Source: a virus. From it: a stretch of 39,497 nt of DNA. The notes beneath the pieces are model-generated. The model saw nothing but the letters and a program-made list of their open reading frames with translations, made no database searches and was not told the DNA's origin. The translations under genes and the position numbers were made by a program. Of the stretch, positions 5,731 to 30,000 are shown in pieces. Within the stretch, counting starts at the first letter, position 1. Every line of letters begins with the position of its first letter. The DNA lies in the IMG/VR virus record IMGVR_UViG_3300010885_027226, positions 1 through 39,497 of that record; one strand, written 5' to 3'.

Positions 5731-6720
5731 TTAGAATGTTATAGTACCGCCCGGGTAATCAAATACATATATTCTAAATCCATTCTGTACAGAATATGTA
5801 TATGATCCTGTTAAAGCAGATGGTGCTTGGAAACTGGTGTTGTACCAAAATATAACCACACCAGTATTTCCATCACCACCGGGAACTGATCGTCCAACAC
5901 CAGCTCCGCCACCACTGCCATATCCATTAATTGATGATCCAACTTGAGAACCACCTATTCCAAATATACCAGCATATGAAGAACCGGCGGCCACATTAAC
6001 AAGTCGTCCGGGACCACCGACTACAGATGAAGCACCACCATTAGCAATACCCCATTGTCCTGTAGATGAATTATAAATTCTATTATCCACACCCTGACCG
6101 CCAGCACCACCACCACCGCCTCCGATGAGGCCACTACCACCAACCCCGCCTCTAAAACCATATCCACCATATGTTGATGTAGATTGATATGCTGAAGATA
6201 AGTAACTATTCTGTCCATCATACCCGGACCAGCCACCACCACCACCGCCTGATCCTCCATTGCTACCATATGCAGCGTTTTGGGCACCAGCGCCACCACC
6301 ACCGCCACCATAGGCATAAAGTGTTCCCAATGTAAAGAATTGTCCAGCAATAGTTGTATCACCACCATTATTACCTTGACTTCCAACTCCACCTCCCGCA
6401 CCACTGGCGCCAACTGTGATAGTTAATGTATATCCTAAAAATCCTCCAGCTTGTTTGTATGTTGGGCCAACTGTGCCTGTTACTAAGCCGCCGGCACCAC
6501 CACCACCACCTCTAGAAACCACTGAACCACTGGTTGCTCCTCCACCGCCCCCTCCTCCACCGATGGCTGCATAATTAATAATTGGAATAACCCCAGCCGG
6601 CAACCATATACCATCGTATGCTGCTTGTTGTTGCTCTCGCATATTCCAAACACCCGATGCACTTGCTGGTTGAGGTGCAACATAATATCTTTGTACTATA
6701 TGTCTAGGATTATTACTCAT
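5731..6720 (-). CDS. Glycine-rich tail fibre / adhesin-like protein A
   Basis: 329 residues. The N-terminus carries a short motif common in phage fibre proteins (GVWNMREQQQAAYDGIWLPA, residues about 23-42), then the pattern typical of phage glycine-rich domains: a strand into a poly-Gly run (INYAAIGGGGGGGG), a strand LTITVGASG, NNGGDTTIAG, further Gly runs, and GNTGVVIFWY. A small beta C-terminal segment follows (SYTYSVQNGFRIYVFDYPGG). Such domains resemble the glycine-rich sandwiches of T4-like gp38 adhesins and probably bind host receptors. It is a paralogue of the next gene upstream (299 residues), starting four bases after its stop. Low-complexity frames inside it are shadows. Virion location is inferred. 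Confidence 0.8.
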   Translation of the reverse strand: MSNNPRHIVQRYYVAPQPASASGVWNMREQQQAAYDGIWLPAGVIPIINYAAIGGGGGGGGATSGSVVSRGGGGGAGGLVTGTVGPTYKQAGGFLGYTLTITVGASGAGGGVGSQGNNGGDTTIAGQFFTLGTLYAYGGGGGGAGAQNAAYGSNGGSGGGGGGWSGYDGQNSYLSSAYQSTSTYGGYGFRGGVGGSGLIGGGGGGAGGQGVDNRIYNSSTGQWGIANGGASSVVGGPGRLVNVAAGSSYAGIFGIGGSQVGSSINGYGSGGGAGVGRSVPGGDGNTGVVIFWYNTSFQAPSALTGSYTYSVQNGFRIYVFDYPGGTITF

Positions 6721-6724
6721 ATTA

Positions 6725-7624
6725 TTAGAATCTTATTGTACCATTACCAGTGAATCTGTATATTCTATATCCATTTTCTATAACTGTGGTGTATGTTCCG
6801 GTTATACTGGAGGGTCTAATATATGTCGCAGGCCACCATAATATAACCACACCGTCTTTACCATTTACTCCGCTCGGTTGTCCTGGATAGCCACCGGTAC
6901 CATAACCAGTATAATCAAGAATACCACCACCTTTGGCAAAAGTATCAGAATATGATGATCCACTACCTACACTAACATAGGTACCTGGGCCACCATAGCT
7001 TTGTCCAGAGTTGAGTCCAGTTGTTCCAGGACCGCCTGATCCACCACCGCCACCGCCTGGATAGTTACCTGCAGATCCAGCATTTCCTAATCCACCATAT
7101 ATTGATGATGGTTGAGTTGGAGATCCACCTGCCGCACCACCACTTGGGTAATAGCCACCACCACCACCACCAGACCCGCCAGCAGCACCTTGAATACTAT
7201 TGCCACCTCCACCGCCGCCGCCATATCCAATTAAATTTAAGTATTGTCCCGTGACAGAACTGTCCCCGCCGTTGCCTGCCAGTTGGTTTTCACTTCTTCC
7301 AACCCCGCCACCACCGATGGAAATAGTCAATGTATATCCATAAGATGATACAGGTTGATTGTATGTAGGTCCAAACGAACCTGTAATTAAACCGCCAGCG
7401 CCGCCACCACCGCCTTGGCCTGTTCCAGCACCCTGTGTTGATCCGCCGCCGCCGCCGCCACCACCTACAACAAGGTAATTAACAGTAGGAATTACACCAA
7501 CAGGCCATATGCCACTAGCTCTAGCTAATCGTTGTTCTCGACTAGTCCAAATCCCGCCAGCGCCAGTTACAGCAGGATCGGAAGGACGGCCTGGTTGAAC
7601 AAGTTTTTTATAAAACTTAGACAT
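6725..7624 (-). CDS. Glycine-rich tail fibre / adhesin-like protein B
   Basis: 299 residues, a diverged paralogue of the 329-residue protein downstream. It shares the order GGIWTSREQRLARASGIWP (about 23-41), VIPTVNYLVVGGGG, LTISIGGGG, NGGDSSVTGQ, repeated Gly runs, DGVVILWW and a C-terminal beta segment ending TGNGTIRF. The N-terminal motif is the probable virion attachment part; the glycine-rich core is the probable receptor-contact part. The two copies differ mainly in the lengths of Gly loops and in loop residues, as expected for tandem receptor-binding paralogues. No strong Shine-Dalgarno is seen; it starts 15 bases after the 124-residue gene. Confidence 0.8.
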   Translation of the reverse strand: MSKFYKKLVQPGRPSDPAVTGAGGIWTSREQRLARASGIWPVGVIPTVNYLVVGGGGGGGGSTQGAGTGQGGGGGAGGLITGSFGPTYNQPVSSYGYTLTISIGGGGVGRSENQLAGNGGDSSVTGQYLNLIGYGGGGGGGNSIQGAAGGSGGGGGGYYPSGGAAGGSPTQPSSIYGGLGNAGSAGNYPGGGGGGSGGPGTTGLNSGQSYGGPGTYVSVGSGSSYSDTFAKGGGILDYTGYGTGGYPGQPSGVNGKDGVVILWWPATYIRPSSITGTYTTVIENGYRIYRFTGNGTIRF

Positions 7625-12179: not shown

Positions 12180-15100
12180 TTACCTGTTAGATAATTTTAT
12201 AGGCGGTACAAAACTCGATGTATAACGTGCTAATCCCTTAGTGATACGTAGATCTTCTATATATCCTTGGAAGTAATTATTTGCACCTGTACTAGTATTT
12301 CCAACAGTTATAGATTGTGATGTATATGTACTAGTATCGCCTGTGCTAACAACAAATGCCCCATTAACAAATACATATGAAACATTATTATTTCTAGATA
12401 CTGCTAGGTGTGTCCATGTACTTGAATTAATATTCAAAACTACACTGGATGTAGAAGTTGCAATATTAAATGCTGCATAATATGAAATTATATTTCTAGA
12501 ATATCTTAATCCACCTTGATTACCAGCGTGATCTAATAACACAGTAGAAGTTGAAGACCATGCTGGACTTGTAGGATATACCCACATTTCCCAAGTAAAG
12601 TCATTACTACCATATACAAATCCTCCAGTACCTTGTACTGTTAATTGATCAGTAATTCCATTAAATGACATACTATATAAATTATATTTGGTTATGGTAT
12701 TACTCAATACTAATGAACTGGTACTGGCTTTGGCCACAGAGTTACCTGAATAATCAATTCCCCTACCATCGGCAAGTGTGGTTAATAAATTAGTTGTAAC
12801 ACCTGATACAAGACCTAATGGTATTTGTGATGGATTGAAGTTAGCTGTATATAATGATCTACCATTAATTACTCTTAGGTTAGACATATAGCCTTGGAAC
12901 ATAAAATTTGTTCCATCCCACATTTTTCCTATAAGTTGATTAGTTCCCTGAGCAGCCATATTAGTTAGGTTATTAAATGCTATATAATCTATCGCACCAT
13001 TAACAAACATTCTTAGTATAGAATTTGTTCTTGTATAGGCTAAATGTGTCCAAGTATATAATTGAATAGTTGTTGCTCCATTACGAGTAGTTCCATCCCA
13101 AAAATATGGTTTAAGAACTCCCCCAACAGTTTGCATTCCAAATATCCATGGAACACCAGCAGTACTTGTTCTTGCATCAAGTATTCCTGCATACGAAGTA
13201 GGTACCAATGTTGGATGTACCCATACTTCTATAGTGAAATCACCTGTACCTAAACTTAAAGCGGCTTGTGCTGAAACATTTAAGAAATCTGTAGTACCAT
13301 TGAAATATGTACTTAAATTAGGATTGGCAGCAAATGGTGAGAATGATATCGTCTTAGGTGTTCCGCCAAAAGTTATAGAATATGCATTAACTGAATTATC
13401 CACAACATTACCACTCTGTAATGTCAATAAAGATGTAGTAATACTAGATGTACTCGGATATGTAACGGTGTTATTAGTATTAGTAACCGTGGTCAATGCT
13501 AGAGCAGGAACAGGAAAATATGAACCTAAATAAAGTGCATAGTCTTTGACCAATCTAAAATTACTTATGTAACCATATAGATATTCAGTGGCTCCTAATA
13601 GTCCTCCAAGAAATAAACTTTCTCCACTATCTGAAATAGTTGTACCGGTGTTCAATACACGCGATCCATTTACATATATACTTAAATTAAAATTATTTAA
13701 ATTAGTACTATCATATGTATAAGCGACATGATTCCATGTACCTGAACTTAATGCTGTAGTAGATGCAAAATATGTAGTTCCATCATAAAAGCCTATATAT
13801 CCTGTACTAGTATTTAGATATCCTTGATACGAAGCGGTAGGTGAAGATGAAACTATATTGAACGGAGTTAATGTAGCTGTAGTAACCGCACCAGTATTGG
13901 TAATAGAATATCCAGCACTGCCACTATCTATTAAACTAGTTGCTGTACTGACAAATTTTGCAACCAATAAAGTTGTTGCTGTAGTAACCAATGGATTTGT
14001 AAGTGATGTGGTCGCAGAGCCATTGTTAGTTATTGTCGAATTTAAATATGAATTATCTACAATAGCTTGGCTCTGTGCTGTTAATAATATAGTACCAGTT
14101 GAGTTCTGTCCAAAAGGTGTAACACCGTAACCAATTGTAACTGGATATACAAAGTTATTAACTGTTAATGCATATCGACTAAAATCTGCAATTGTATCTT
14201 TAATCAGCAAAACGGTATATATATCATACGGAATAGCTGCTATATTTGTGTCAGCGGCCTGAGTAGTAGAAAACGGTATTGTTGGAACAGTGAAATTACC
14301 TATATAAACTGCTATACCTGAAACTAGTCTAAAGTTAGTTATATACCCTTTGAAAAAACTTCCATCACCATTATAATTTTGATAATATGTACCTATATAT
14401 GCTGTACCACTTTGTCCAACAGGTTCATTAAAACTGACTGTAGAGAATTGTTGTTGTCCATTGACAAATATTTTAAATGTTGCGCCTGGATTATCTCTCA
14501 CAGCAGCAAGATGTGTCCATGTATTGATGGTAACAACAGCGGCTGGGGTACTATAAGTACCGGTCCAAGACCATGAACCAGAGTTAGTTACGAAAGAAAC
14601 ACTATAATCGGGATTAATTTGAAACAATGTATAAGTAGCTACACCACCAGTACCTAATGTCCATATAGTATTATTACTAGAACCAGTAACATATGCCCAG
14701 CATTCCATGGTAAAACTTATATTACCAAGATTAAAAGTAGAATTAGAAGTTATAGTGAGCCACGCTGGCAAAGTAGTTGCCATTGTATTAAAGAATAAAG
14801 AATTCCCACCTGCTATTGTACCAGTAATAGCACTAATATTTGTACCTGAACTTTGAACTAAAGTTAGAGCATTTTTAGGAACAGTGAAAGTATCTGTATA
14901 TACTGCTTGTCCTCTAACTATACGTAGATTACTAATATATCCATTCCAGAATTGGTTGCCTGATGCACCATCCGATTTACCAATATATCCCGGAGCAGTA
15001 TTATGTGAAATAGTGCCAGCATAGGTATAGACTGTACCACCTATACCATTTTGAAATATTCTGAAAGAACTACCACTTCTTACCAATGCTACATGATACC

Positions 15101-18100
15101 AGGTGTTTATTGTTAATGCAGGTAAACCAGAATCCGGTGCATCAAATGCCCAACTTGACCCAGATGCATTTGCAATTTGCATGACCAATTTATTTGTAGT
15201 ATTAAGCACACGGAATATCACACCAATGAATTGCCCTACTTCTCTTTTACCAAATATACCGTTTTGTCCGCCAAGCACAGTGGTATATACCCAGGCCTCT
15301 ATAGTAAAATCACCAGTGTCAAGACTAAGTGCAGTTGAATTTGGTACGGTTAAGTATTGAGTTGTGCCATTAAATAATATACTATAATTCGGATTTGGAA
15401 TTGCTATACTTGGGCTACCACTTAAATTAACGGTTTGAGTATTTGACAATGGTGAATAAGAAGGAGTAAATGCTGTTGTATATATTGCAGAACCGGTTAC
15501 TATTCTTACATTAGACATATACCCAGTGAAATAATCTACAAACCCAGTATATTGGAATGACCCAATATTAGTCACTCTAGCAGTAACGGTTTTAGTAATG
15601 GTTCCCGAATTGTCCAACACACCATTAACAAACAATTTAACAAGTCCGGATGTTCTTGTTACCGCTACATGAACCCACTTGTTAAGTGCAGATAATATAC
15701 TACCGATGACAGATAACTGACTTGAAGCATCTCTTATTGTAAATTGACAATGTCCATCAGCATAGGTGGATAATGCCCAATAATTATTATCGGCGTTGCC
15801 AGTTGCATTATCTAATAAAGTACAAGTTGTTGCTGCTGTTTTATAAATCCAACATTCAATAGTAAAGTCACCTGTACCAAATGAGCTTGCTCCAACCGGT
15901 GCTATTAGATATTGAGTAGCACCGTTAAAATATAAACTACCAATTATACCTACATCAAATGTATTGCCTAAAACATTACCGACATTAGTAATATCTAAAG
16001 TATTATTACCATAATCTAAAATAATAGGTGATGATCCGGAGAATTTACCTATTAATAATGTTGTATAACTTGCTGTACTAACAGCCTGTGTGTTAAAACC
16101 ACCTGATGGATTTGCTAATTGTGTAGTGTAAAGTGGTATAGTGGGTGGAATAAAATTACCTATATATACAGCTGATTGTGTAATACGGAAGTTAGATATA
16201 TAACCTGCCATAGTGTAACTAGCACTATAATATAAACCGACTGATAAGTTTGTTAGTAATGAATAATCAGTGGTATCTAAACTAGCAACAATAGCATAAC
16301 TTGTACCATTTATGTATAGATATAATATTGATGAAGATCGAACTAATGCTACATGATACCATAGTCCAGCAGCTGGAACATTTGTTGAAGCAATATTTGC
16401 TGTATTGTTTCCATTACCCCATAATACGGTCCAACCACCGGTAACATAGGCTACTGCAATTCCTGTTACAGCACCGGGATTATAAGCTGTGGCAAGATGA
16501 AAAATTCCAGAGTTAGTGGGAGTTGAACTAAAATTAACCCAACATTCTATGGTAAAATCACTAGCACCAGCGGCAATGAACGGATAGTTATTAGGAGAAA
16601 ATATTTGTAAATAAGAACTTCCACTAAAATACATGCTATTATATGTAGGCAATCCAACAACAGCATTACGTTTTGCAAATAATACACTATTACCTACACT
16701 ATAATTTCCAATAGGATTTACCCAAGCTTCTATGGTCCAATTTGTACTAGACGATAAATTCAAAGGAGTTGCCGGAGAAACTGATAGATAACTACTACCA
16801 TTAAAATACATACTATAATTTGTACCAAATGGTGAAAAACCTTGCAATGTTGTAGCAGTGGTGGAGTTAGTTATAACAAATGAATTTGCCGAACTATCTG
16901 TAAAAGTTGTATCTGTACTTAATAATGTTAATAAAGCATTAGATACATTTGACGTTAAATCAGTGGTAAGAGGATTAAACGCAGATGCATATTTAGAAGT
17001 TTTTAACACACTTAAATTACTGATATAACCATTAAATGTAGTAGCGGTGCTATTTAATGTACCACCTATAACAATATTTTGACTACTACCAATATTAGTA
17101 ATCAATGTGCTAACATAGGAAAGATTTGGAGATACTGAGCCACTATATGTAACTCCGCCATAATTAATTATAGAATATGCGTAGGTACTAGTATCTATGA
17201 TACCAGAATGTTGAGCAGTTAATAAACTGACATAACTTGCGGTAAGGATAGCAGATACATTGTTATCTGCTAATTGTGTGGTAGCTAATTCAGTAGTTGG
17301 TACTATAAAATTACCAAAGTATAATATAGATTTAGTTATACGTACATTTGATAGATATCCGTTAAAAGCACCAAGAGGAGGTGCTGCACCTACATATAAC
17401 GAAAAATTAGGATCGGCAGGATTATAGTTAAATGTAGTATTGCTGAAACTTCCATTATTATAGGCCACACTTTGAGCCACACCATTTACAAAGAAAGTAA
17501 CAGTTTTAGTGCTGGTGGTAAATGTTACTGCTGCATGGTTCCATGTACTAGTTGAAAATAAACCTGCTACAGTGTTAGGAAGATAATTTTGTCCGCCCGC
17601 TGCTCTATTAAATCCTAGCAATAATGAACCCTGAGCAGCACCACCCACAACACCATTTGAATAATTAATTGAAAATTCTATACCGGAATACGGAGTGCTA
17701 GCACTTGTACCTAAAATATTTTGATATGCCGTACTTGTAGTATAAAACCAACATTCGATTGTGTAATCTTGCAGGGCATTATGTAAGAATGTCCAATTGC
17801 TAGCAGCACCCACAACTAAATCATTAGTGGTATCAAAACGCAAACTACCTGTTAGATTATAAGATGACGTGGGAGCTAAAGTATTGTAGGTAACAGCAGT
17901 ATTAGGTATTGACCAATTTGAAACACTTGAATCAACAAATGCAGTACTACTATTGGCAACCGATAGTAATAAGACAGTATTAGTTATAGTAGTTAATGGT
18001 AAAATTGGAGTAAAATTACTGCTACCAGAACTACCACCATAAACTACAGATTTTGTAACTCGGAAATTTGATATATAGCCATTAAAATAATTTCCTTGAG

Positions 18101-21100
18101 GATTCTTTCCTATTTGTAATCCGTAGTCGGAATTTGCAAAAGTACCAACACTGACACTGCCACTAGCACGTAATATTCCATTTATAAAAATTGTAGCTAT
18201 CTTAGTGACATAATTAAATGTGACAGCTAAGTGATACCACAATCCTGTGGTAAAGACTCCGGGATATGTATTAATGAATGATCCATTACTGAACCCACCT
18301 ATCCATGCTACACTGGCAACGCCTGTACTGGGAATTAGCGTACATAATATTCCAAATGCACCACTAAAAAAACCAGTGCCGGCATATGAAGTGCTGAATA
18401 ATACTTCATCGCCGGCGACTGAATTTGCATAGAACCAAGTTTCCCCAGTCCAATTTGATGTACCATCGGATAAAAACCCAAAGTTACTTCTAGTACCTAT
18501 TGTACCTAATTGCGAACTGGTACCATTAAAACTTAAACTGCCGCCGGCAATAGAACTGGTTGTATAAACAGTGGGTGTGGTAGAATTTGCAACTAATTTA
18601 CCATTTAGATAAAAGGTATTGGATCCGTTAGTTCTTACACATGCTACATGTGACCAAACATTCAATGAAACACGAGTATTTGATACCACTCCCGATGATG
18701 CTGAAGTTCCTATTTGGAAATATAAAAATCCTGAAGGATTGATTATGAAGAACCAGTCTGCAGATATTATTGTTGTAGTATATGTGATTCCACCAACAAT
18801 TAAAGATCCATAGTATACATTACGAGCAGTAGGGTATATCCATGCTTCCACAGTAAAATCACTATTACCAAATGCAAATGATAAGTTTGTACTAGTATTA
18901 ACTACTAGATAATTATTTCTACCATTAAAATATGCACTACCACTACCACCGAATGGCGATAATACTTGTTGGAAAACTGTACTAGTTGTAGGTTTAGTTA
19001 ATGCAAAATTATTAGCTGAGTTATCTTTAAAGTTTGGTGCATTATTTTGCAATGCTAATAATACTGTATTAGTAACACTGGTCAATGAGGTTGTAGGAAC
19101 GGTAAATGTCGGTGTATAAATTGCTGTTCCCACTAATATTCTAACATTAGATATAAAACCAAACAACGTTTGATTACTAGCAGTAATAGGACTATTAATG
19201 AAAAATGTTTGTATTGTCAGTGCTGTGGAATCTGCCGCAGATGCTACAACCACGCCATTGATATACATGTACAATATTGAATTGTATCTAATCATGGCAA
19301 CATGATTCCATGTGTTCAATGGTAGTGGTGCTGGTGAGGTTAAGAAACCAGTACCACCGGTGTTTTGCCATTGTATTGTACCAGCGGCCAACATGTACAA
19401 TACAGGAACACCAGCAGTAGTACCAGCATTAGTACGCCAATCTATAAGAGCGCTATTATTTGCATTATATGATTGTGCATAAACCCATAATTCTACAGTA
19501 TAGTTTCCACTGCCCAATGCTAGGGTATTTTGTGTTCCAAGACTCAAATTTTGAGCCGCAGCAGTTGTTGTATTGAAATATACACTGCCACCAACCATAG
19601 ATTTATTATATTCACCGGGTATCTTGTAGGGTGTGAATTTTGTTATAGCAGGCGAACTGGCCACGGTTCCAGTACTGACTATAAAAGTATTAGCGCTCTT
19701 ATCAACGTGATATCCACTAGCAGCAACTAACAAACTAGTATTTGGAATTCTTGACAATGGTGCAGTGGGTGGAGTAAATGCTGATGTATAAACTGCTGTA
19801 CCATTTACTATTCTAAAATTAGATAGATAACCTGGGAACATACTAGTCACAGCAGATCCGGCTCTACCTATTAACATATTTGTATTAGTAGAATATGGTG
19901 TTAAGCTAACACCATTAAACAATGCTGTGGCAATTCTAGTACTGGTAGTAAATGTAATAGAGTTAGTACCTGTTCCACCGTAGGGATTTGGTGGTTGTTG
20001 AGCAGTTAATATACCAGTAGGTGAAACAAAATTTGTTCCAGTATAAACAGCCACACCGCTGACTATTCTAAAGTTACTGATATATCCAGTTAGAAAAATT
20101 GATGTAGCAGTACTAAATCCTTGGTAACCAAATTGTAGAATAGGTTGATCTGTATAACTAATAATTTGTGTTGATGTAGTTCTAACACCATTTACATACA
20201 TTGACGCAGTAGTACCTAATCTTGAGAATGCTACATGATTCCAGGTGTTTGGTAAAAAGGCTGTTGTCATAGATGTAGTTGAAATACCCAATAACAATGT
20301 TGTATAGCTTGCAGTTAATATTGCCTTTGCGAGAGTAGCTCGAGCAGATTGCGTAGCACCTAGTGGGTAAGGTGGTATCATATTTACAGAAGTACTAGAA
20401 GTAGTATATACTGCTATACCTGTTACTAATCTTATATTAGACATAAATCCTGTATAATAATCTATAAAATTAGTAATTCGGAAAGAACCAAGCAGAGTTG
20501 TTCTAGCAGTAATTGATTTAGTAATAGTTCCCGAATTATCAAATCTACCATTAACATACAATCTAACCAGGCCGGATTCTCTTGTTACCGCTATATGAAC
20601 CCAGGTGTTAATTGTAGTAACTCTACTACCATAAACAAATGCTTGTGTGCTATCTCTAATTTGAAACGTCCAAGTGCCGTCGACATTTGTACCTAATGTC
20701 CAATAAGGACCAGCACCACCGCTTTCAGCATTGTTTAAAGGAGAGCATAATGTTGCTGCTGTTTTATAGAACCAACCTTCAACAGTAAAATCACCTGTAC
20801 CAAATGAGCTTGCTCCAATCGGTATAGTTATATATTGACTAGTACCATTAAAACTTAAACAAGAGCTACCGTAAATACTGTTTGGTCCTATTAGTGTGCC
20901 GCTGCCATAAGTTGTTGGTGTAGCACCAATTCCACCACGATCAGTAAGAAGTTGGCTAAGAAAAATCGGTGGTGTTGTATCAAATGTTTTTAATACATTG
21001 CTTGATCGATAACCAAGGCTCATGTAATAGTTGTTTATGGTCCATTCCCAACCAGTTGTACCAACCCCATTGTATGTTCCAGCTATCAACATACTATTAT

Positions 21101-24100
21101 TAGTCAATGTGTTTAAATAAACCCAAGCCTCTACATTATGATCACCATAAGTCAGCCAATTAGTTGATGATGTTGTACTCAATGAAGTGTTGCCACCGAA
21201 GTAGAGACTGTAATAATTTGTAGCAGTATATATACTAAATGGATCCAATGTACTTAAACTAACTGTACCTAATCCTATGGATACAGCAATTGTATTGGTA
21301 CTATAATCAATAATATTTGTTGCTGATGTTGATAATATTGTTAATAATTTAGTAGAAGTAGATGTAGATATTGCTTGTGTATTACTTCCGCCAAATGGAT
21401 TGGCTGATTGCATGGCAGTTAATGGACCAGTTGGTAATGTGAAATTTCCAGTATAAACTGCAAGACCGGCAACAAATCTAATATTACTTACGTACCCGAT
21501 AAGAGATGTAATATCATTGGTGTATCTTTTACCCAAACTAATTGTAGTATTAGTCATATTTCCAGCAGATCTAGCTATAGGTGATCCAGCAACAGCTACA
21601 CCATTGAGATATCCACTCATAGTGTTTGATTGCGAACATAGTGCAACATGAGTCCATGCATTTGTAGGGAATGTCCAAGTAAGACCAACTCCGCCTGATC
21701 CATTAGCATTGTATATTCCAAGTTGATCTCTGGCTATAATAAACCCTGCCGTACTAGCACTACAGCTGGCTAAAATTCCGCCTGTGCTACCGGTTAATGA
21801 ATTCATCCAAACCCAACATTCTACTGTGAAGTCACCTATGCCAGTAGCAAAGGCTGAGCTTGTATAATCTATTTTTGCATTCGCTATACCGGTACCTGGA
21901 AAATATACACTATTATATAATGTACTTGTAGAGCTAATAGGAGGATATAAATTACTAGGTGCAAAAAAAGCATTATTAGCAGTTCCAGTAGTAACACTAA
22001 TAGGAAAAACGCTAAAATCAGCTGTAATTTGATTTACACCTTCACCAATAACTTTTGAAGGATTTGCCAATAACAAAGTTGAACTGTTAATTGTACCAAT
22101 TCCAAGAAATGGATTAGCAAATTGTGAAGCAGTTAATGGACCAGACGGTCTTGTAAAATTAACATAATTATAAACTCTGTCTTTAGTTATACGAAATCCG
22201 GCTATATAAAATGAAAAATTATTATTGTTACTAGTTGATGATCCAATTACTAAATTAGTTTCTGGTAGTGTGCCTGGTGCGGCATATGTTCCGCTGTTGC
22301 CACCACCACTACTAGTTACTAATACTCCATTTATATAAACAACGTTGTCCGAGGGTATTACAATATGATACCAAGTACCTACTTGGTATGAGGGGAAACT
22401 GAAGGAGGCAGAGTCGGTGGAAATCAAAGATGGATAACTTACAAAACGGAACACAGTAAGATTAGCACTAGCACCAACACTGGAAAAACTCACAGAAATA
22501 ACAGCTCCTACAGGGCTTCGGCTTGTAGACCCAGTACTAAAAATATATCCGCCTGAACCGTCGATGGGAGCAAACAACCAAAATTCTATAGTATAAACTG
22601 AATATTGTTCATGTAAAAATGTCCAATCGGACGGTACGCCTACAGTAATATAAGTACCAGGATTAATACATATACTATTAAATGTACTAGTTGAACTAAT
22701 AGGAGGATATAGTGTTGAAGGACCCGTTCCATAATTGTTTATTACAAAATTATTACTGTAATCTTCAAAGAAATATCTTGAAGGATTTAAAAATCTGCCC
22801 AACAACAATTGTGTGGTGTTTGTGGTAATATTTGCGATGGCTCCACCGGGTGTGGAATTTTGTATAGTACTTAAAACAGTTTGTGGAAGTGAAAAAGATG
22901 ATCCAGAATATAATGCTAGAGTTTTAACAATACGTACATTACTGATATAACCGGTAAATGGTTGTGTGCCTGCGCTGCTTGCTCCTACTGTTAAATTGTT
23001 TGTTGCACTATAAAGGGCTAACGCACTCGAATATGTTACAACTGAACTACCATTTAAGTATAAAGTAAATGTACTACCATTTCTAACCAATGCAAGATGA
23101 TTCCATTGATTTAACGGTATAACTGTACTTGATACACTATCTGTTAGTACAGCCGCTCCTGTGTTGGACAGTAAAAATCTAGCATATCCATTTACGTCGT
23201 TGCTGGTCATAATAACCCATGACAGCGTTGTACCACCGGTTGAACCAGACCATTGTCCAAAAAATATATTTTGTGCAGTCCATGCTACCGATCTATAAAC
23301 CCATCCTTCGGCAGTAAAATCACCGGTACCATATTGATATGCTGCACCAGTAGGTATATTTAAAGAACTTGTTCCATCAAAATATAAACTTTGATAAGAT
23401 CCTTGAGTATAGGGGTTAAGGCTAGAATATGTTATATTGGTGCCTACTACTGATGCAGTATTAACACTAATGTCAGTTATAGGACTAGACGTATTATTAG
23501 ATACTTGTTCTACTCCATTAACATATAGACTAACTTTAGTTGAGTTACGTACAGCAGCAATATGATTCCATGTACCTGTGGATAATACATTAGGGCCGGT
23601 GCTGGTTAAATTCCATAATGAGCCTGCATTAGAAACTGCTAATACAGGTTTATTTGCACTTATATATAATCCCACCGGTGCATAGTTACCAGTATTGTAT
23701 TGTCCAGCAATATAAGCTGTACCAGTATTAGCTGTGAGATATGCCCATGTTTCTATGGTCCAATCATTAGTACCAAAATTCAAAGAAGTAAGTGTAGCAC
23801 TAGATGAATAGATAACTGGTACACTTAGATGATCAGTGGTACCATTAAACAATGTACTCCAATTATTACCAAATGGACTAAATGTTCCTTGTCCTGGATT
23901 ACCGGTTGGAGTAATACCGAGATTATTTGTTCCATAATCAACGAATCCTGTAGAACCTTGATAATATGAATAAAATTGTCCTGCTAATATTGTAGTACCT
24001 GTGGTAAAAGCAGTAGTATTGCTTCCACCGTATGGATTAGCTACCTGTGTTAATTGTAATGGTCCAGTAGGTACTGTAAAGTTATTATTATAAACTACCG

Positions 24101-27077
24101 TACCATTAACTATTCTAAAGTTACTAATATTTCCAATGAAAGGTTTTTGCCAATTACTATCAAAAACTGGACCTCCACCTATATATAAACTAGGGCCACC
24201 TGTAACAAAAGGAAGTTGAGGATTATATGTGGGAGCAGATGTTGATACATATCTAACTCCGTTTATATATATTAAATTAGTAGAACCAGATCTTGTCCAT
24301 GTTACATGATTCCATGTGTTCGGTGCAAATAACTGTGTTGTTTTAGTGGAGGTTGAAACACCTAATAATACTGCTGTATAACTTGCGGTTAGTATTGCCT
24401 GCGTATTACTGCCTCCGTAAGGATTAGCAGATTGTGTAGTAGAAGTAATAGGACTTGTTGGTACATTAAAATTGCCAGTATATACTGCTAGACCATTAAC
24501 AATCCTAATATTAGACATATAACCATAATATGCATCAATTCCCAAAGAACTACCGAGCGTAGCAGTATGACCTTGAGCAATACCGAGTACGCCAGGGCTG
24601 TAAAGAGATCCCGATATGCTGCCTGTTCCAGCATTAGAACCATTTATATAAAAATTGCAAGTTGAACCATTTCTTACAAATGCAATATGATTCCATTGAT
24701 TAACTGTTACAGTGCCGGTAGATTGAACATAAACATCAGTGACACTGGTCGTTTGCCATCTAAACTGAATAGTCCCAGAAGAATTTCCAAGGAAGAGGCC
24801 CCAACCATAAAAATTATAATTTGAACCATAGCAATCTCCTAAAATTAATCTATAGTATGTATTATCAGTAGGATTTATCCATGTTTCAATAGTAAAGTTA
24901 TTAGATCCTAAATCAACTTTAGGATCAATGTATAATTGAGGATAATAACCACCGCCAATAATAAAATTAAGACTACCGATATAATTTGTAAAAGGGCTCA
25001 ATGCGCTTACTACTACACCTAAATACTGGTTTGTTGTAGCAGTGGTACCATTACTTGCAATAAGTTGATCTAAAGGTGAATTTACAGCAAACTGTCGTAA
25101 GAACCATTGTGAATAGTCTGTATATAATTGATGATTAAGAACTAGGTAATAATTGTTAATGGTCAAAGACCAGTTACCAGTAAGACTAACGCCCATACCA
25201 GATCCGGCAATTACCATATCAGACGTAGTAGATGTATTCAAATAAACCCATGCTTCAACTGTGTAATCTGCCGATGATGATAACCATCCTCCAGTTCTTG
25301 TTGAACTTAAATAATTGTTACCATTGAATTGCACACTATTATAAGTTACACCAGTGGCAAATGGATCTAATGTACTAGCAGTAACCCCTGTAACAGATAT
25401 AGTATTAGTAAGTGTGCTGTAATCAACTATACTTGTTGAAGTTGTAGAAAATCTACCTGTTAATAATGTAGTACCTGTGTTAATTGCTGATATATTGCCT
25501 GAAGCTGCATTTTGTATAGTGCTTAATGGAATAAGATATGGTAAAAAATTACCTGTATAAACTGGATATGTTACTGATCTAATATTTGAAAGATAACCTG
25601 TGTGATATGCGCCTTGACTTGGTAATCCACCAATAGTAACTACTCCACTCGTAAATGTTGGGCTCCAAGACTGTGTAAGGACCGCTGATCCATTTTGGTA
25701 TATATAAAATATGTTACTTGATCTAACAATAGCAACATGTACCCACTGATTTAATGTAAAAGCAGTGGGTGATGAATATGTAATTACACCAATCTGTCCA
25801 ATTGATATATAATTGTTACGATGATAAACATAGAAACCATTTGATGCTCCAACTCCAACTAAAAAGTGATTTGTAATATTATCAGATGACGTTGCATACA
25901 TCCAAAATTCTACAGTAAAATTATTTGCAAGTGCAGGCAATGCACCGGCAGACACAGACAAGTATGCAGACCCGTTGAAATAAAGACTATGATATGAACT
26001 CGGGTCAAATGGATTTAATGTACTAGCTGCTACACTATTAAAGTTACTGATTGCATAATTATTCAAACTACTATCACTAATGACGTTATTGATTACATTA
26101 GAAGAAATTAATGTTGTGGGACTATAATTTAGCAATAAGGTATTATTTTTAAAGTATGGATCTGACTGAATTCTAGGATATAAGTTTGCAGGGATAGCAT
26201 AGGTTATTATAACAATACCACTGCCACCTGCACCACCTGATCCAGCAGGGTTAGAACCACCGCCACCGCCTCCACCACCACCTGAGTTAGTTGTTCCTGC
26301 TGTGCCGGCAATTACAGATGATGTTCCACCAGCACCGCCGCCACCATAACCGCCTGGACCTGCGGTCAGGAGGCTGGAGCCACCACCACCGCCGCCTGCT
26401 AACCAAATTGGCGATCCAGTGATCAGTGTAATTGTCCCCGATCCACCTTGACCCGAACCAAATATGTTTGAACTACCGCCTGGGGCACCAGCGCCGCCAC
26501 CGCCGCCGTTGGCGCCGGTATTACCGCCAGCTCCTCCGCTATTACCTTGGCCGCCAATACTACTACCACCGGGTGTGGTACTGGCGGTACCGCCCCCACT
26601 TCCTCCGTTCAGATTAGTATTATCATTAATTGAGCCGCCAGCGCCGCCACCATATGCAGTAAGTACAGTAACACCATTGGTCAAAGTACTATCATTGCCA
26701 GTTCCGCCTTTAGTTGCAGAGAGACCACCAACTCCACCTGTACCTCCACTACCAACAGTTATGGTTAATGTACTGGTAATAGAATACGTTGAAGAAGTTA
26801 AAACACCACCTGCACCTCCGCCGCCAGCGCCGCCTTGTGGTGAAGTAACTTGCAGTGTACCTCCACCTCCACCGCCACCAGCAACAACTAACACTTGAGC
26901 AGTAGTAGTAGTTACATAACTAGGTTTAGTAAATTGTCCTGATGATGTAAAGACATGAACAGCATAATAGGTAGTACCGCTAGAATAAAATCCCACAAAA
27001 TTTCCACCGTAGGTGCTGGTAGAAATAACAGGAGGTTCTCTGCGTTGTCTTTTAATTACCCCTAAATCATATGGCAT
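12180..27077 (-). CDS. Giant 4965-residue adhesin with 20 LamG-like units, five of them split and nested
   Basis: One uninterrupted 14.9-kb frame. Residues 1-60 are an adaptor (MPYDLGVIKRQR) shared with the 1929-residue protein; 60-295 form an intact glycine-rich domain ending GIVIITY. The rest is LamG/concanavalin-A-like units: a YFNG strand, (G)DFTVEAWVY, a WNHVAxVR strand, a YVNG strand, IG, then GYISNxRIVxGxAVYTxxF and a linker ending in LLxxx...DYSxN. I count 20 starts and 20 ends. Units 2, 4, 8, 11 and 14 are interrupted by whole units: 2 (about 576-665 and 896-986), 4 (1070-1208 and 2398-2430), 8 (1953-2032 and 2266-2346), 11 (2711-2842 and 3328-3360), 14 (3418-3475 and 4415-4516). The last unit uses GYIEDLRIT instead of GYISN. 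No signal peptide, membrane span or protease motif. Probably a very long multivalent glycan-binding tail fibre; LamG folds are lectin-like, ligand unknown. It starts 22 bases after the 1929-residue gene. Confidence 0.85.
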   Translation of the reverse strand: MPYDLGVIKRQRREPPVISTSTYGGNFVGFYSSGTTYYAVHVFTSSGQFTKPSYVTTTTAQVLVVAGGGGGGGTLQVTSPQGGAGGGGAGGVLTSSTYSITSTLTITVGSGGTGGVGGLSATKGGTGNDSTLTNGVTVLTAYGGGAGGSINDNTNLNGGSGGGTASTTPGGSSIGGQGNSGGAGGNTGANGGGGGAGAPGGSSNIFGSGQGGSGTITLITGSPIWLAGGGGGGSSLLTAGPGGYGGGGAGGTSSVIAGTAGTTNSGGGGGGGGGSNPAGSGGAGGSGIVIITYAIPANLYPRIQSDPYFKNNTLLLNYSPTTLISSNVINNVISDSSLNNYAISNFNSVAASTLNPFDPSSYHSLYFNGSAYLSVSAGALPALANNFTVEFWMYATSSDNITNHFLVGVGASNGFYVYHRNNYISIGQIGVITYSSPTAFTLNQWVHVAIVRSSNIFYIYQNGSAVLTQSWSPTFTSGVVTIGGLPSQGAYHTGYLSNIRSVTYPVYTGNFLPYLIPLSTIQNAASGNISAINTGTTLLTGRFSTTSTSIVDYSTLTNTISVTGVTASTLDPFATGVTYNSVQFNGNNYLSSTRTGGWLSSSADYTVEAWVYLNTSTTSDMVIAGSGMGVSLTGNWSLTINNYYLVLNHQLYTDYSQWFLRQFAVNSPLDQLIASNGTTATTNQYLGVVVSALSPFTNYIGSLNFIIGGGYYPQLYIDPKVDLGSNNFTIETWINPTDNTYYRLILGDCYGSNYNFYGWGLFLGNSSGTIQFRWQTTSVTDVYVQSTGTVTVNQWNHIAFVRNGSTCNFYINGSNAGTGSISGSLYSPGVLGIAQGHTATLGSSLGIDAYYGYMSNIRIVNGLAVYTGNFNVPTSPITSTTQSANPYGGSNTQAILTASYTAVLLGVSTSTKTTQLFAPNTWNHVTWTRSGSTNLIYINGVRYVSTSAPTYNPQLPFVTGGPSLYIGGGPVFDSNWQKPFIGNISNFRIVNGTVVYNNNFTVPTGPLQLTQVANPYGGSNTTAFTTGTTILAGQFYSYYQGSTGFVDYGTNNLGITPTGNPGQGTFSPFGNNWSTLFNGTTDHLSVPVIYSSSATLTSLNFGTNDWTIETWAYLTANTGTAYIAGQYNTGNYAPVGLYISANKPVLAVSNAGSLWNLTSTGPNVLSTGTWNHIAAVRNSTKVSLYVNGVEQVSNNTSSPITDISVNTASVVGTNITYSSLNPYTQGSYQSLYFDGTSSLNIPTGAAYQYGTGDFTAEGWVYRSVAWTAQNIFFGQWSGSTGGTTLSWVIMTSNDVNGYARFLLSNTGAAVLTDSVSSTVIPLNQWNHLALVRNGSTFTLYLNGSSVVTYSSALALYSATNNLTVGASSAGTQPFTGYISNVRIVKTLALYSGSSFSLPQTVLSTIQNSTPGGAIANITTNTTQLLLGRFLNPSRYFFEDYSNNFVINNYGTGPSTLYPPISSTSTFNSICINPGTYITVGVPSDWTFLHEQYSVYTIEFWLFAPIDGSGGYIFSTGSTSRSPVGAVISVSFSSVGASANLTVFRFVSYPSLISTDSASFSFPSYQVGTWYHIVIPSDNVVYINGVLVTSSGGGNSGTYAAPGTLPETNLVIGSSTSNNNNFSFYIAGFRITKDRVYNYVNFTRPSGPLTASQFANPFLGIGTINSSTLLLANPSKVIGEGVNQITADFSVFPISVTTGTANNAFFAPSNLYPPISSTSTLYNSVYFPGTGIANAKIDYTSSAFATGIGDFTVECWVWMNSLTGSTGGILASCSASTAGFIIARDQLGIYNANGSGGVGLTWTFPTNAWTHVALCSQSNTMSGYLNGVAVAGSPIARSAGNMTNTTISLGKRYTNDITSLIGYVSNIRFVAGLAVYTGNFTLPTGPLTAMQSANPFGGSNTQAISTSTSTKLLTILSTSATNIIDYSTNTIAVSIGLGTVSLSTLDPFSIYTATNYYSLYFGGNTSLSTTSSTNWLTYGDHNVEAWVYLNTLTNNSMLIAGTYNGVGTTGWEWTINNYYMSLGYRSSNVLKTFDTTPPIFLSQLLTDRGGIGATPTTYGSGTLIGPNSIYGSSCLSFNGTSQYITIPIGASSFGTGDFTVEGWFYKTAATLCSPLNNAESGGAGPYWTLGTNVDGTWTFQIRDSTQAFVYGSRVTTINTWVHIAVTRESGLVRLYVNGRFDNSGTITKSITARTTLLGSFRITNFIDYYTGFMSNIRLVTGIAVYTTSSTSVNMIPPYPLGATQSARATLAKAILTASYTTLLLGISTTSMTTAFLPNTWNHVAFSRLGTTASMYVNGVRTTSTQIISYTDQPILQFGYQGFSTATSIFLTGYISNFRIVSGVAVYTGTNFVSPTGILTAQQPPNPYGGTGTNSITFTTSTRIATALFNGVSLTPYSTNTNMLIGRAGSAVTSMFPGYLSNFRIVNGTAVYTSAFTPPTAPLSRIPNTSLLVAASGYHVDKSANTFIVSTGTVASSPAITKFTPYKIPGEYNKSMVGGSVYFNTTTAAAQNLSLGTQNTLALGSGNYTVELWVYAQSYNANNSALIDWRTNAGTTAGVPVLYMLAAGTIQWQNTGGTGFLTSPAPLPLNTWNHVAMIRYNSILYMYINGVVVASAADSTALTIQTFFINSPITASNQTLFGFISNVRILVGTAIYTPTFTVPTTSLTSVTNTVLLALQNNAPNFKDNSANNFALTKPTTSTVFQQVLSPFGGSGSAYFNGRNNYLVVNTSTNLSFAFGNSDFTVEAWIYPTARNVYYGSLIVGGITYTTTIISADWFFIINPSGFLYFQIGTSASSGVVSNTRVSLNVWSHVACVRTNGSNTFYLNGKLVANSTTPTVYTTSSIAGGSLSFNGTSSQLGTIGTRSNFGFLSDGTSNWTGETWFYANSVAGDEVLFSTSYAGTGFFSGAFGILCTLIPSTGVASVAWIGGFSNGSFINTYPGVFTTGLWYHLAVTFNYVTKIATIFINGILRASGSVSVGTFANSDYGLQIGKNPQGNYFNGYISNFRVTKSVVYGGSSGSSNFTPILPLTTITNTVLLLSVANSSTAFVDSSVSNWSIPNTAVTYNTLAPTSSYNLTGSLRFDTTNDLVVGAASNWTFLHNALQDYTIECWFYTTSTAYQNILGTSASTPYSGIEFSINYSNGVVGGAAQGSLLLGFNRAAGGQNYLPNTVAGLFSTSTWNHAAVTFTTSTKTVTFFVNGVAQSVAYNNGSFSNTTFNYNPADPNFSLYVGAAPPLGAFNGYLSNVRITKSILYFGNFIVPTTELATTQLADNNVSAILTASYVSLLTAQHSGIIDTSTYAYSIINYGGVTYSGSVSPNLSYVSTLITNIGSSQNIVIGGTLNSTATTFNGYISNLSVLKTSKYASAFNPLTTDLTSNVSNALLTLLSTDTTFTDSSANSFVITNSTTATTLQGFSPFGTNYSMYFNGSSYLSVSPATPLNLSSSTNWTIEAWVNPIGNYSVGNSVLFAKRNAVVGLPTYNSMYFSGSSYLQIFSPNNYPFIAAGASDFTIECWVNFSSTPTNSGIFHLATAYNPGAVTGIAVAYVTGGWTVLWGNGNNTANIASTNVPAAGLWYHVALVRSSSILYLYINGTSYAIVASLDTTDYSLLTNLSVGLYYSASYTMAGYISNFRITQSAVYIGNFIPPTIPLYTTQLANPSGGFNTQAVSTASYTTLLIGKFSGSSPIILDYGNNTLDITNVGNVLGNTFDVGIIGSLYFNGATQYLIAPVGASSFGTGDFTIECWIYKTAATTCTLLDNATGNADNNYWALSTYADGHCQFTIRDASSQLSVIGSILSALNKWVHVAVTRTSGLVKLFVNGVLDNSGTITKTVTARVTNIGSFQYTGFVDYFTGYMSNVRIVTGSAIYTTAFTPSYSPLSNTQTVNLSGSPSIAIPNPNYSILFNGTTQYLTVPNSTALSLDTGDFTIEAWVYTTVLGGQNGIFGKREVGQFIGVIFRVLNTTNKLVMQIANASGSSWAFDAPDSGLPALTINTWYHVALVRSGSSFRIFQNGIGGTVYTYAGTISHNTAPGYIGKSDGASGNQFWNGYISNLRIVRGQAVYTDTFTVPKNALTLVQSSGTNISAITGTIAGGNSLFFNTMATTLPAWLTITSNSTFNLGNISFTMECWAYVTGSSNNTIWTLGTGGVATYTLFQINPDYSVSFVTNSGSWSWTGTYSTPAAVVTINTWTHLAAVRDNPGATFKIFVNGQQQFSTVSFNEPVGQSGTAYIGTYYQNYNGDGSFFKGYITNFRLVSGIAVYIGNFTVPTIPFSTTQAADTNIAAIPYDIYTVLLIKDTIADFSRYALTVNNFVYPVTIGYGVTPFGQNSTGTILLTAQSQAIVDNSYLNSTITNNGSATTSLTNPLVTTATTLLVAKFVSTATSLIDSGSAGYSITNTGAVTTATLTPFNIVSSSPTASYQGYLNTSTGYIGFYDGTTYFASTTALSSGTWNHVAYTYDSTNLNNFNLSIYVNGSRVLNTGTTISDSGESLFLGGLLGATEYLYGYISNFRLVKDYALYLGSYFPVPALALTTVTNTNNTVTYPSTSSITTSLLTLQSGNVVDNSVNAYSITFGGTPKTISFSPFAANPNLSTYFNGTTDFLNVSAQAALSLGTGDFTIEVWVHPTLVPTSYAGILDARTSTAGVPWIFGMQTVGGVLKPYFWDGTTRNGATTIQLYTWTHLAYTRTNSILRMFVNGAIDYIAFNNLTNMAAQGTNQLIGKMWDGTNFMFQGYMSNLRVINGRSLYTANFNPSQIPLGLVSGVTTNLLTTLADGRGIDYSGNSVAKASTSSLVLSNTITKYNLYSMSFNGITDQLTVQGTGGFVYGSNDFTWEMWVYPTSPAWSSTSTVLLDHAGNQGGLRYSRNIISYYAAFNIATSTSSVVLNINSSTWTHLAVSRNNNVSYVFVNGAFVVSTGDTSTYTSQSITVGNTSTGANNYFQGYIEDLRITKGLARYTSSFVPPIKLSNR

Positions 27078-27099: not shown

Positions 27100-30000
27100 T
27101 TATTTAACCGGAAGCGCCTTCTGGGGTACGAGGAATGCCGAAGTATATCTTGCCACACCTCTGGTTATACGTAGATCATCTATATATCCACTAAAATAGC
27201 CTGTACCAGCAGCTCCAAAACCTATACGTACAGTGGGGTTGATAAAGTTGGTAGCAGTATTATAATATGGAATACCTTCAGGTATTCCATTTAAATATAA
27301 GTTTAAATTACTTAAACGTCTTACTAATGCTATGTGATTCCATGTATTTACACTAATAAATGTAGTACCTGTTATATAACCAATACCCAGTGTACTAACA
27401 TTCAATGTGCCAGTATTGCCTAGGTATATATCAAATCCAGCATTAGCTGTATTAGTTGTTCGCATATCAAATATTGATCTAACAGTACTTGCTTGTAATG
27501 TAGCCGCAAGTTGTCCAGGCTGAATTTGAGGTGCTACATTGATCCACATCTCTATAGTGAAATCAGAAACTCCTAATGCAGAACTAGCAGTTGAGAACGG
27601 TACTATTGTCAAATAATCAGAAATACCAGAAAGATATATACTTCTAGGATTATAATTAGTAACAGTAGAAGATACAGTAGCGGTATTTATAGTTACAACA
27701 TTATTTTGCATACTATAATCTGCTATTGCAATGTTAGTGAAATTCAATAATAATGATGTATTTGTACTAGTGTCAATGGTCTTCAATGGCGCAACAGGTG
27801 AGTTAAATGGTGAATTATATATCGATTGACCTTTTATTACTCTAAAATCTGAAATATAACCAGTGAAATATGATGTTGCAGTGGGGCCATTTCTTCCTAT
27901 TACCATTTGTCCTGTAGAGAAGTTTGTTGATGAATTGACAGTTAATATTACGTTTCCATTTTGCCATACAGACATATAAGATGCTGTTCTAGTCACAGCT
28001 ATATGGTTCCATGTATAAGGAACAACAGGTGATATAGATAATGGCGAAGTTGTATTACTATAGCTGAAACTTAACAATCCAGTAGTTGCTGCGATATTCA
28101 AAGCAAATGCATTTGGACGAGTAGAATCCCCAAAGTTGCCCACTGTATCAAAAATACATTGAGCAAGAGCAGTTGATGTTGTATATACCCAACATTCAAT
28201 GGTAAAATCTGAACTAAGTTGTAGAGAAGGTACAAATGTAGCTGTTGTTGTATAAAGATAATCACTAGTACCATTAAAAAACACGCTGCCACCTATGGTT
28301 AATGGTGTATATGTATATCCCATAGAGTATGGAGAATATTTTTGAATCTTGGGAGTACTAGTAGCTGTACCTGTACTAATAGCAAATGACGATGTACTAC
28401 TATCACCATGTTTGTAGGTGTTGTGGGTAAGAAGTACGGTATTTGCTGATGCATTGAACGGAGCAGCAGGTGGTATAAAAGTAGCAACAGGTACCGGAAC
28501 ATTTCTTACAAATGATGGAGTACCTGCACTTGTGGCTAATATGTAAGGTGAAGATGAATAATTTCTAAATGCAGTACTAGTTGTTAAAAAAGTTAGTAGT
28601 GTTGTATTTGTAATGTTTGGTAAATTTGTTGCAGGTACTGTAAAGTTACTAGTATAAAGTGCTGCACCGTTAAGAACTCTTAAATTTGACACATAGGCTG
28701 TTGAATATTGACCAGCGGTAGCAGTCCCACCTAGAGTAAATCCAGTCTCTGTGATGTTTGTAGTGAAGGCAACAGAATAAGATAATGTTCCATTTAGGTA
28801 AAGAACTACTTGCCCTGAGTTTCTGACCCAAGCAACATGATACCATTGATTAAGAGTAAAAGCAAGACCACTATTAAAACCTGCAACAGACGTGGTCATA
28901 TACCATTGTCCGCTAAGTGCTCCGAATGCTACTCCATTAGCAGTAGTAAAACCTCCAGCAATATGATTATATCCAGCAACTGCTGTCCAATATACCCAAA
29001 ATTCAACTGTAAAATTATTGGTGCCAAATATAAATGCTGTTGAAGTAGCACTGGACAAATAACTACTGCCATTAAAGTAAACTGAAGTTGCTGTACTAGG
29101 AGAATATAAAGCACTAGTTGATACTTTTAAATTACTAATAGATCCATTATAGAATTTATTAAAGTATGCTCCGGATACTATACCATATGTTTGTGTAGTA
29201 TTTGTAAGTGTGCTAAATGTTGTACCAGTTGTTGAGAATTGACTAGCACCGTTTATAAAAATTGTAGCGGTACCTGCATTAGATACCCATGCTACGTGAT
29301 TCCACGAACCTGTTGATAATGTATTAGTTGCAGTTATAAAATTATTACCATTGATTGCATCTCTCCAATACATCATTGGTTTATTAGAAGAATCTAATCC
29401 CACACTCCATGCTACTCCGGGACCATTTGGCTGTACATCACCTAAAATAACAGTAGCGGTATTGGATAATTGAATATAGTTTGGATTTAACCATGCTTCA
29501 ATGGTAAATGTCCTATTTGTTCCCCAAAATATATTTTGTTGAAATACAGTGCTTGTAGTAATTGTTGAGGCAAATGATGTATAATCTGTAGTACCATTAA
29601 ATGCGGTACTCCACAATGATCCATAAGGACTAAATGTTCCTTGTGCGATTGTAACTGATGCTGTATTAATAGTTATGTTATTAACACTAGAATCTATAAA
29701 TGTTCTATTGTTAGTTACTGTAGTTAGTTGCCCTGACAATAGTAAAGTAGTATTTTTTAAATTTGAATCAGTAAGGTCTGTGGGGAATCTAGCAGCATCA
29801 CCTATAAATGCAGGATATCTAAATATAACAATACCACTACCACCAGCAGCAGCATTAGAAAAATTTACATTACTTCCACCACCACCCCCACCTGAATTAA
29901 CAGTTCCAGGAACAGCAGAAACTAGTGCGCTAGATAGCGTATAATATCCACCATTACCTCCTCCACCAACACCGCCTAATCCAACACCGTATAAAGTAGA

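Follow-up and report, generated by a model that had tools for sequence, protein, structure and literature searches.

A 4965-residue phage protein in which whole LamG units are very probably inserted in the loops of other LamG domains

The 39,497-nucleotide stretch of viral DNA analyzed here (IMG/VR record IMGVR_UViG_3300010885_027226, positions 1 to 39,497; referred to below as the window) encodes a very large protein made up of LamG domains, several of which very probably carry whole LamG units inserted in their loops. Sequence comparison and structure prediction supported the view that a separated front and back constitute one host domain, that whole units are inserted, that the insertion sites may be empty or occupied, and that the inserted units (guests) are common to different sites, genes and phages. 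The gene for this protein, P0001, extends from position 12180 to 27077 on the minus strand, begins with ATG and remains open throughout its 4965 codons, according to the ORF list and the translation. A preliminary description of the same DNA had proposed a LamG frame of this length and location without stating its strand, and the frame is real. Pfam recognized Laminin_G_3 (PF13385) in 20 stretches of the protein (E=3.7e-262; 858.6 bits versus a curated cutoff of 27.6), and the record as a whole showed 28 places matching this family. Besides LamG-type families, only a glycine-rich family and two weakly overlapping ConA-like families were reported for the protein. The glycine-rich domain (Gly_rich_2, PF21722; E=1.5e-18) is N-terminal, at residues 44 to 293 (positions 26199 to 26948).

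To delimit the units, a core LamG profile of 179 positions, built only from the 15 apparently intact domains, was searched against the whole protein. It rendered 15 full matches, five front-only matches that stopped early and five back-only matches that started late, arranged as 1, 2[3], 4[5,6,7,8[9]], 10, 11[12,13], 14[15-18], 19, 20, where brackets enclose guests. The order read previously, with its five orphan fronts and five orphan backs, was thus reproduced exactly.

Starting from the N terminus (all features lie on the minus strand), LamG 1 is intact (residues 360 to 516, positions 25530 to 26000; core profile 3 to 178, 144.6 bits). LamG 2 is divided into a front half (residues ∼533 to 650, positions 25128 to 25481; core profile 4 to 73) and a back half (residues ∼906 to 1010, positions 24048 to 24362; core profile 85 to 178), with LamG 3 and its linkers between them (residues ∼651 to 905, positions 24363 to 25127; core profile 5 to 179, 152.6 bits). 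The front part of LamG 4 runs to its VNG strand (residues ∼1028 to 1195, positions 23493 to 23996; core profile 5 to ∼133, the alignment extending to 147), and its back part lies at residues ∼2386 to 2445 (positions 19743 to 19922; core profile 130 to 178). The intervening region (residues ∼1196 to 2385, positions 19923 to 23492) was resolved by the core profile into LamG 5, 6 and 7 plus a further host with its own guest, 8[9]. For its part, LamG 8 comprises a front half (residues ∼1900 to 2030, positions 20988 to 21380; core profile 3 to 85) and a back half (residues ∼2269 to 2360, positions 19998 to 20273; core profile 90 to 177), separated by LamG 9 and its linkers at the second level of nesting (residues ∼2031 to 2268, positions 20274 to 20987; core profile 4 to 177, 162.6 bits).

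LamG 10 is intact (residues 2495 to 2663, positions 19089 to 19595; core profile 4 to 178). It is followed by the front part of LamG 11 (residues ∼2672 to 2830, positions 18588 to 19064; core profile 5 to 132), by LamG 12 and 13 as its guests, delimited with the core profile (residues ∼2831 to 3325, positions 17103 to 18587), and by its back part (residues ∼3326 to 3378, positions 16944 to 17102; core profile 135 to 178). LamG 14 has the shortest front match, with core profile positions 4 to 49 (residues ∼3382 to 3474, positions 16656 to 16934), and its back part covers positions 76 to 175 (residues ∼4413 to 4530, positions 13488 to 13841); the core profile placed LamG 15 to 18, with their linkers, between the two (residues ∼3475 to 4412, positions 13842 to 16655). 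The protein ends with two intact domains, LamG 19 (residues 4585 to 4753, positions 12819 to 13325; core profile 3 to 179) and LamG 20 (residues 4797 to 4960, positions 12198 to 12689; core profile 2 to 177).

In all five hosts front and back cover complementary stretches of the profile, in agreement with the earlier claim that the two fit each other at the cut. The PF13385 model, run independently, found split envelopes in domain 2 (3 to 59 and 69 to 143) and domain 14 (2 to 50 and 41 to 142), and matched the back of domain 8 alone at 71 to 143. When the inserts were left out in silico, each joined pair gave one continuous match over nearly the whole core profile, scoring 86.0, 120.9, 82.4, 88.1 and 78.5 bits for domains 2, 4, 8, 11 and 14, respectively, compared with 19 to 74 bits for single halves. 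Chimeras of front and back that failed to form a continuous LamG domain would have refuted the nested reading, and these continuous profile matches gave no such outcome. Fronts of early-split domains combined with backs of late-split ones gave no continuous match. Fronts and backs of the same cut type were partly interchangeable in this scoring, as expected for members of a single family. The fit under the bracketed pairing was equalled or bettered by 6 of the 120 possible pairings, the observed one included; since, in addition, sites 2 and 8 are paralogous, complementarity provides only moderate support.

The order of the halves was even less decisive. Deletions in a plain tandem array could have trimmed some domains from the front and others from the back, leaving independent remnants in bracket order by chance. 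A balanced string of five fronts and five backs has a chance probability of 1/6, so the bracket order alone is weak evidence; furthermore, a linker strand of the kind that opens a normal domain stands before every orphan back, which is what an internal deletion would produce. The preliminary description had used the order as an argument against tandem duplication or deletion: the order itself stood, but not its weight as proof. The strong support for nested insertion came from relatives of the protein and from structure prediction.

Two long homologues of the window protein emerged from scans of a viral collection: L009, with 5757 aa, and L029, with 5610 aa. All three proteins have a common start, MPYDLGVIKRQRREPP, and a common end, PPIKLSNR. 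The three contigs come from different metagenomes, and most host pieces are 51 to 82% identical among them. Both relatives keep the splits in domains 4, 8, 11 and 14, and in both domain 8 again lies inside domain 4, so that the nesting deeper than one level seen as 4[..8[9]] in the window has its counterpart there. At other sites the proteins differ. In L009 the counterpart of the window's 2[3] is an intact domain 2 with the same flanks, and the two window halves, once joined, aligned with it from end to end with 51% identity. This L009 domain, diverged inside, could be a replaced domain rather than the ancestral empty state. Domain 8 of L029 carries one additional LamG, located after its YFNG strand and before its VEAW strand, at a point where neither the window nor L009 is interrupted; with this guest left out, it matched the front of window domain 8 at 62%. 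Domain 19 of L009, an intact relative of host 14, spans the window cut and showed 52% identity to the joined window domain. The guests at site 11 number two in the window and about three in L029; L009 has a single guest there, a different one.

Domains 16 and 18 of L009 seem to carry further inserts, with less certainty, since identity is 34% at 16 and the linkers at 18 are complex. Within domain 18, residues ∼4150 to 4285 of the L009 protein (the one from 14353) include a SPRY-like segment of 19.4 bits, under the Pfam cutoff of 26.3, with two LamG domains after it. In the same protein, an insert of ∼150 residues without any Pfam match, absent from the window, interrupts the back half of domain 14 at residues ∼5090 to 5250; it is apparently a guest other than LamG. 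Scans for more members using two well-conserved blocks returned only L009 and L029 again, plus distant plain arrays, and a search of bacterial and archaeal genomes found no nested homologue. With only two relatives, the direction of change, gain or loss, is not fixed at most sites.

All three sequences are metagenomic contigs, and assemblers are misled by repeats; the splits might therefore reflect short reads of repetitive LamG DNA that were joined wrongly. However, the 4965-codon frame remains open, and contigs from three different metagenomes share the splits at 4, 8, 11 and 14. Moreover, even the most similar pair of units found within the window, guests 9 and 16, reaches only 73% DNA identity, a divergence too large for mis-joins of the ordinary kind. 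Misassembly was rejected on the basis of the splits common to the three contigs, and we consider it extremely improbable.

Host pieces and guests differed in their positional conservation. Best hits between the window and its relatives lay at the same position for 22 of the 28 host pieces and for 4 of the 22 guests (p=4e-5), or for 6 of the 22 guests in a lenient count (p=5e-4); pieces were classified by hand using the best-hit table. Several guests could be traced at the DNA level. The extra guest in domain 8 of L029 matched a unit of a plain tandem array in another phage, L023, over 602 bp with 87% identity, the match covering one LamG core and the linker after it. In L023 this unit (17119 to 17867) stands immediately after a glycine-rich stretch. 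Window guest 17, located inside domain 14, was 79.5% identical to a guest inside domain 4 of L029 and 83% identical to an L023 unit, and window guest 5 was 78% identical to a LamG of a different L009 gene. In these traced guests the DNA matches ended at most ∼20 residues, and mostly no more than 7, from the ends of the LamG core.

The inserted unit is a LamG core plus the linker that follows it, which accounts for the linker-like strand before each orphan back. The shared cassettes make recombination between LamG repeats a natural candidate mechanism, although the mechanism of insertion has not been shown; a part for short homology at the conserved GSLxFNGT and VPTxPL ends is no more than a guess. 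The earlier proposal that whole LamG cassettes had been inserted into loops thus found support in the occupied and empty sites, the DNA sharing among guests, the joined halves and the predicted structure of one pair.

For that prediction, residues 1893 to 2367, containing 8[9], were modeled with AlphaFold2 from a shallow alignment (40 rows, ∼4 of them covering the host halves), with and without the back half. In the complete model, pLDDT values were mostly 80 to 95 for the guest, mostly 66 to 79 for the front (from approximately model residue 40) and mostly 55 to 86 for the back, the two connecting linkers being of low confidence. When the back half was omitted, pLDDT in the front blocks at model residues 41 to 100 dropped to 41-58, compared with 67-79 before, and no strand remained at 65 to 69, 74 to 78 or 88 to 96, while the guest was unchanged. 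In the prediction, then, the front of domain 8 depends on a back half located ∼250 residues further on. In the absence of coordinates or PAE, this result is support rather than proof, the pairing of front and back being deduced from shifts in confidence and in strands. Structure prediction, which the preliminary description had proposed as a check, thus favored the nested reading, in that the front lost core strands without its back, although this support is limited to a single nested pair and a shallow alignment.

In the model, guest 9 and host 8 showed strands consistent with a LamG/ConA-like beta-sandwich, and a Foldseek search pointed to this fold as well. The best Foldseek matches included laminin LG, agrin, neurexin LNS and other ConA-like domains, with TM-scores by target length of up to 0.68 for single LG domains. 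When the cuts were placed on the guest 9 strands, they lay in or next to loops. The cut of domain 14 is at strands 4-5, those of domains 2 and 8 lie between strands 5 and 8, those of domains 4 and 11 are at 10-11, and the extra insert of L029 enters at 2-3.

Taken against these data, independent trimming of domains by deletion does not hold. All five pairs are complementary, three proteins share the same splits and have highly conserved hosts, L009 domain 2 offers an uninterrupted counterpart at the corresponding site, and the front of domain 8 needs its back to fold, in prediction. The linker strand before the backs, for its part, is explained by a core-plus-linker unit such as the L029/L023 cassette. 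Independent truncation was consequently rejected on the joined halves, the empty sites and the AlphaFold2 result, and we judge it very unlikely. The layout of an insert within a host also resembles that of inteins, and the inserts could in principle be excised after translation, leaving plain LamG hosts. Here, however, the inserts are ordinary LamG domains and Pfam reported no intein or Hint domain in the protein, for which reason this possibility was discarded as practically negligible.

With nested insertion retained, the genomic context bears on what the protein may do. The L029 contig encodes a baseplate hub/lysozyme, a PAAR protein, a tail fiber and a ribonucleotide reductase, indicating that the phages are tailed; they are probably contractile-tailed. 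The neighbors in the window include a collagen-like tail fiber protein, a second LamG protein, glycine-rich proteins and glycosyltransferases, so that genes of the virion tail accompany the nested protein in both contigs. The second LamG gene lies directly upstream (27100 to 32889, minus strand) and encodes 1929 aa with six intact tandem LamG domains and a glycine-rich domain; parts of it are ∼67 to 72% identical in DNA to its L029 counterpart. Further along the minus strand, by phage tail genes, a 1123-aa protein (2310 to 5681) combines a glycosyltransferase group 1, a glycosyltransferase family 2 and an FkbM-type methyltransferase. Two adjacent minus-strand genes (5731 to 6720 and 6725 to 7624) both match phrog_2295, which also matches the glycine-rich N terminus of the nested protein. 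At the end of the window, an open-ended minus-strand ORF (37640 to 39496) shares 86 bases with the gene of the collagen-like tail protein; Pfam gave it a PhyR_sigma2 hit that lacks any passing stretch and probably arises artifactually from repeats.

From its family and context, the nested protein is likely a virion adhesin for glycans or other surface ligands. A multivalent role in host binding is somewhat favored, and it is inferred only, without binding data. The branched multivalent lectin proposed in the preliminary description remains, in both shape and function, an inference that has not been shown.

The model that best explains these observations starts from a conserved LamG scaffold (domains 1, 2, 4, 8, 10, 11, 14, 19 and 20) of a tailed-phage virion surface protein, several loops of which are interrupted by whole repeat units of core and following linker, an architecture that we hold to be very probable. 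The rest of the model is inferred. Other LamG arrays would supply new units by recombination, and the split domains would fold as ordinary LamG sandwiches with the guests as side branches. The whole could make multivalent contacts with glycans or other ligands of the host cell surface, and guest exchange might retune binding while the scaffold is kept. We give about even chances to the reading that the split hosts act as a docking scaffold whose guests are gained, lost or swapped at fixed loops with the arrays of other phages, resulting in a branched, reconfigurable receptor-binding protein.

The nesting may also be real and yet a neutral by-product of frequent recombination among LamG repeats, without any special role for branching, an explanation that competes only with the functional part of the model. 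Units do move between genes and phages, and other LamG arrays manage without nesting; against this, all three relatives retain the splits in scaffold domains 4, 8, 11 and 14 while the guests change, so that the arrangement is at least tolerated in the long term and perhaps selected. Neutrality is a possibility that we keep, without favoring it. Domain insertion is usually viewed as old and fixed, whereas these three phages present occupied and empty sites in one protein. This, the two-level self-nesting and guests traceable at 73 to 87% DNA identity to other sites, genes and phages make the evolution of nested domains directly testable. It also suggests a possible route by which a phage could change a lectin-like virion protein without rebuilding its scaffold.

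Comparison with known LamG arrays indicated that this architecture is special to the family of P0001 among the proteins sampled. The controls came from two counts, of 43 and 18 multi-LamG ORFs, that drew on named phages as well as on bacterial and other viral contigs; after removal of overlaps and sister genes they amounted to ∼48 distinct ORFs with ∼240 intact domains, totals that are estimates because some loci overlap. No front-only or back-only halves were found in these ORFs except at ORF or contig ends. The few internal partial matches covered ∼100 or more of the 179 profile positions and looked like weak hits or divergent whole domains. The idea that nesting is a general property of LamG arrays was consequently rejected on this sample. 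L041 contains two plain arrays of 13 intact domains and L023 one of 15. The Laminin_G_3/ConA-like arrays of many tailed phages, above all cyanophages (PF13385; PHROGs 3545, 24074, 13163, 8510 and 701), belong to the same family and are multi-domain virion proteins of the same kind; the ∼48 examined are plain tandems, whereas in P0001 the hosts are split by guests. Laminin LG4-5, agrin LG3 and neurexin LNS share the beta-sandwich fold of the 8[9] model, but they are animal proteins with only ∼8 to 21% sequence identity.

A search of the open-access literature, with subscription papers outside its scope, yielded no account of a phage protein with LamG nested in LamG, and within that limit the earlier statement that no described phage protein with two-level nesting of this kind was known held. 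Nested insertion is itself a known kind of architecture. An ECOD survey of 2026 described nested domain insertions of the type A1-B1-C-B2-A2, including six-level nesting in the cyanobacterial RNA polymerase rpoC2, where one fold (hybrid motifs) was inserted repeatedly (PMC13114784). The window protein resembles those proteins in that an inserted domain is itself a host (PMC13114784). It differs from them in that LamG is inserted in LamG within a phage virion protein, the guests vary, and occupied and empty sites can be compared; it is this recursive form with exchangeable guests that appears to be undescribed.
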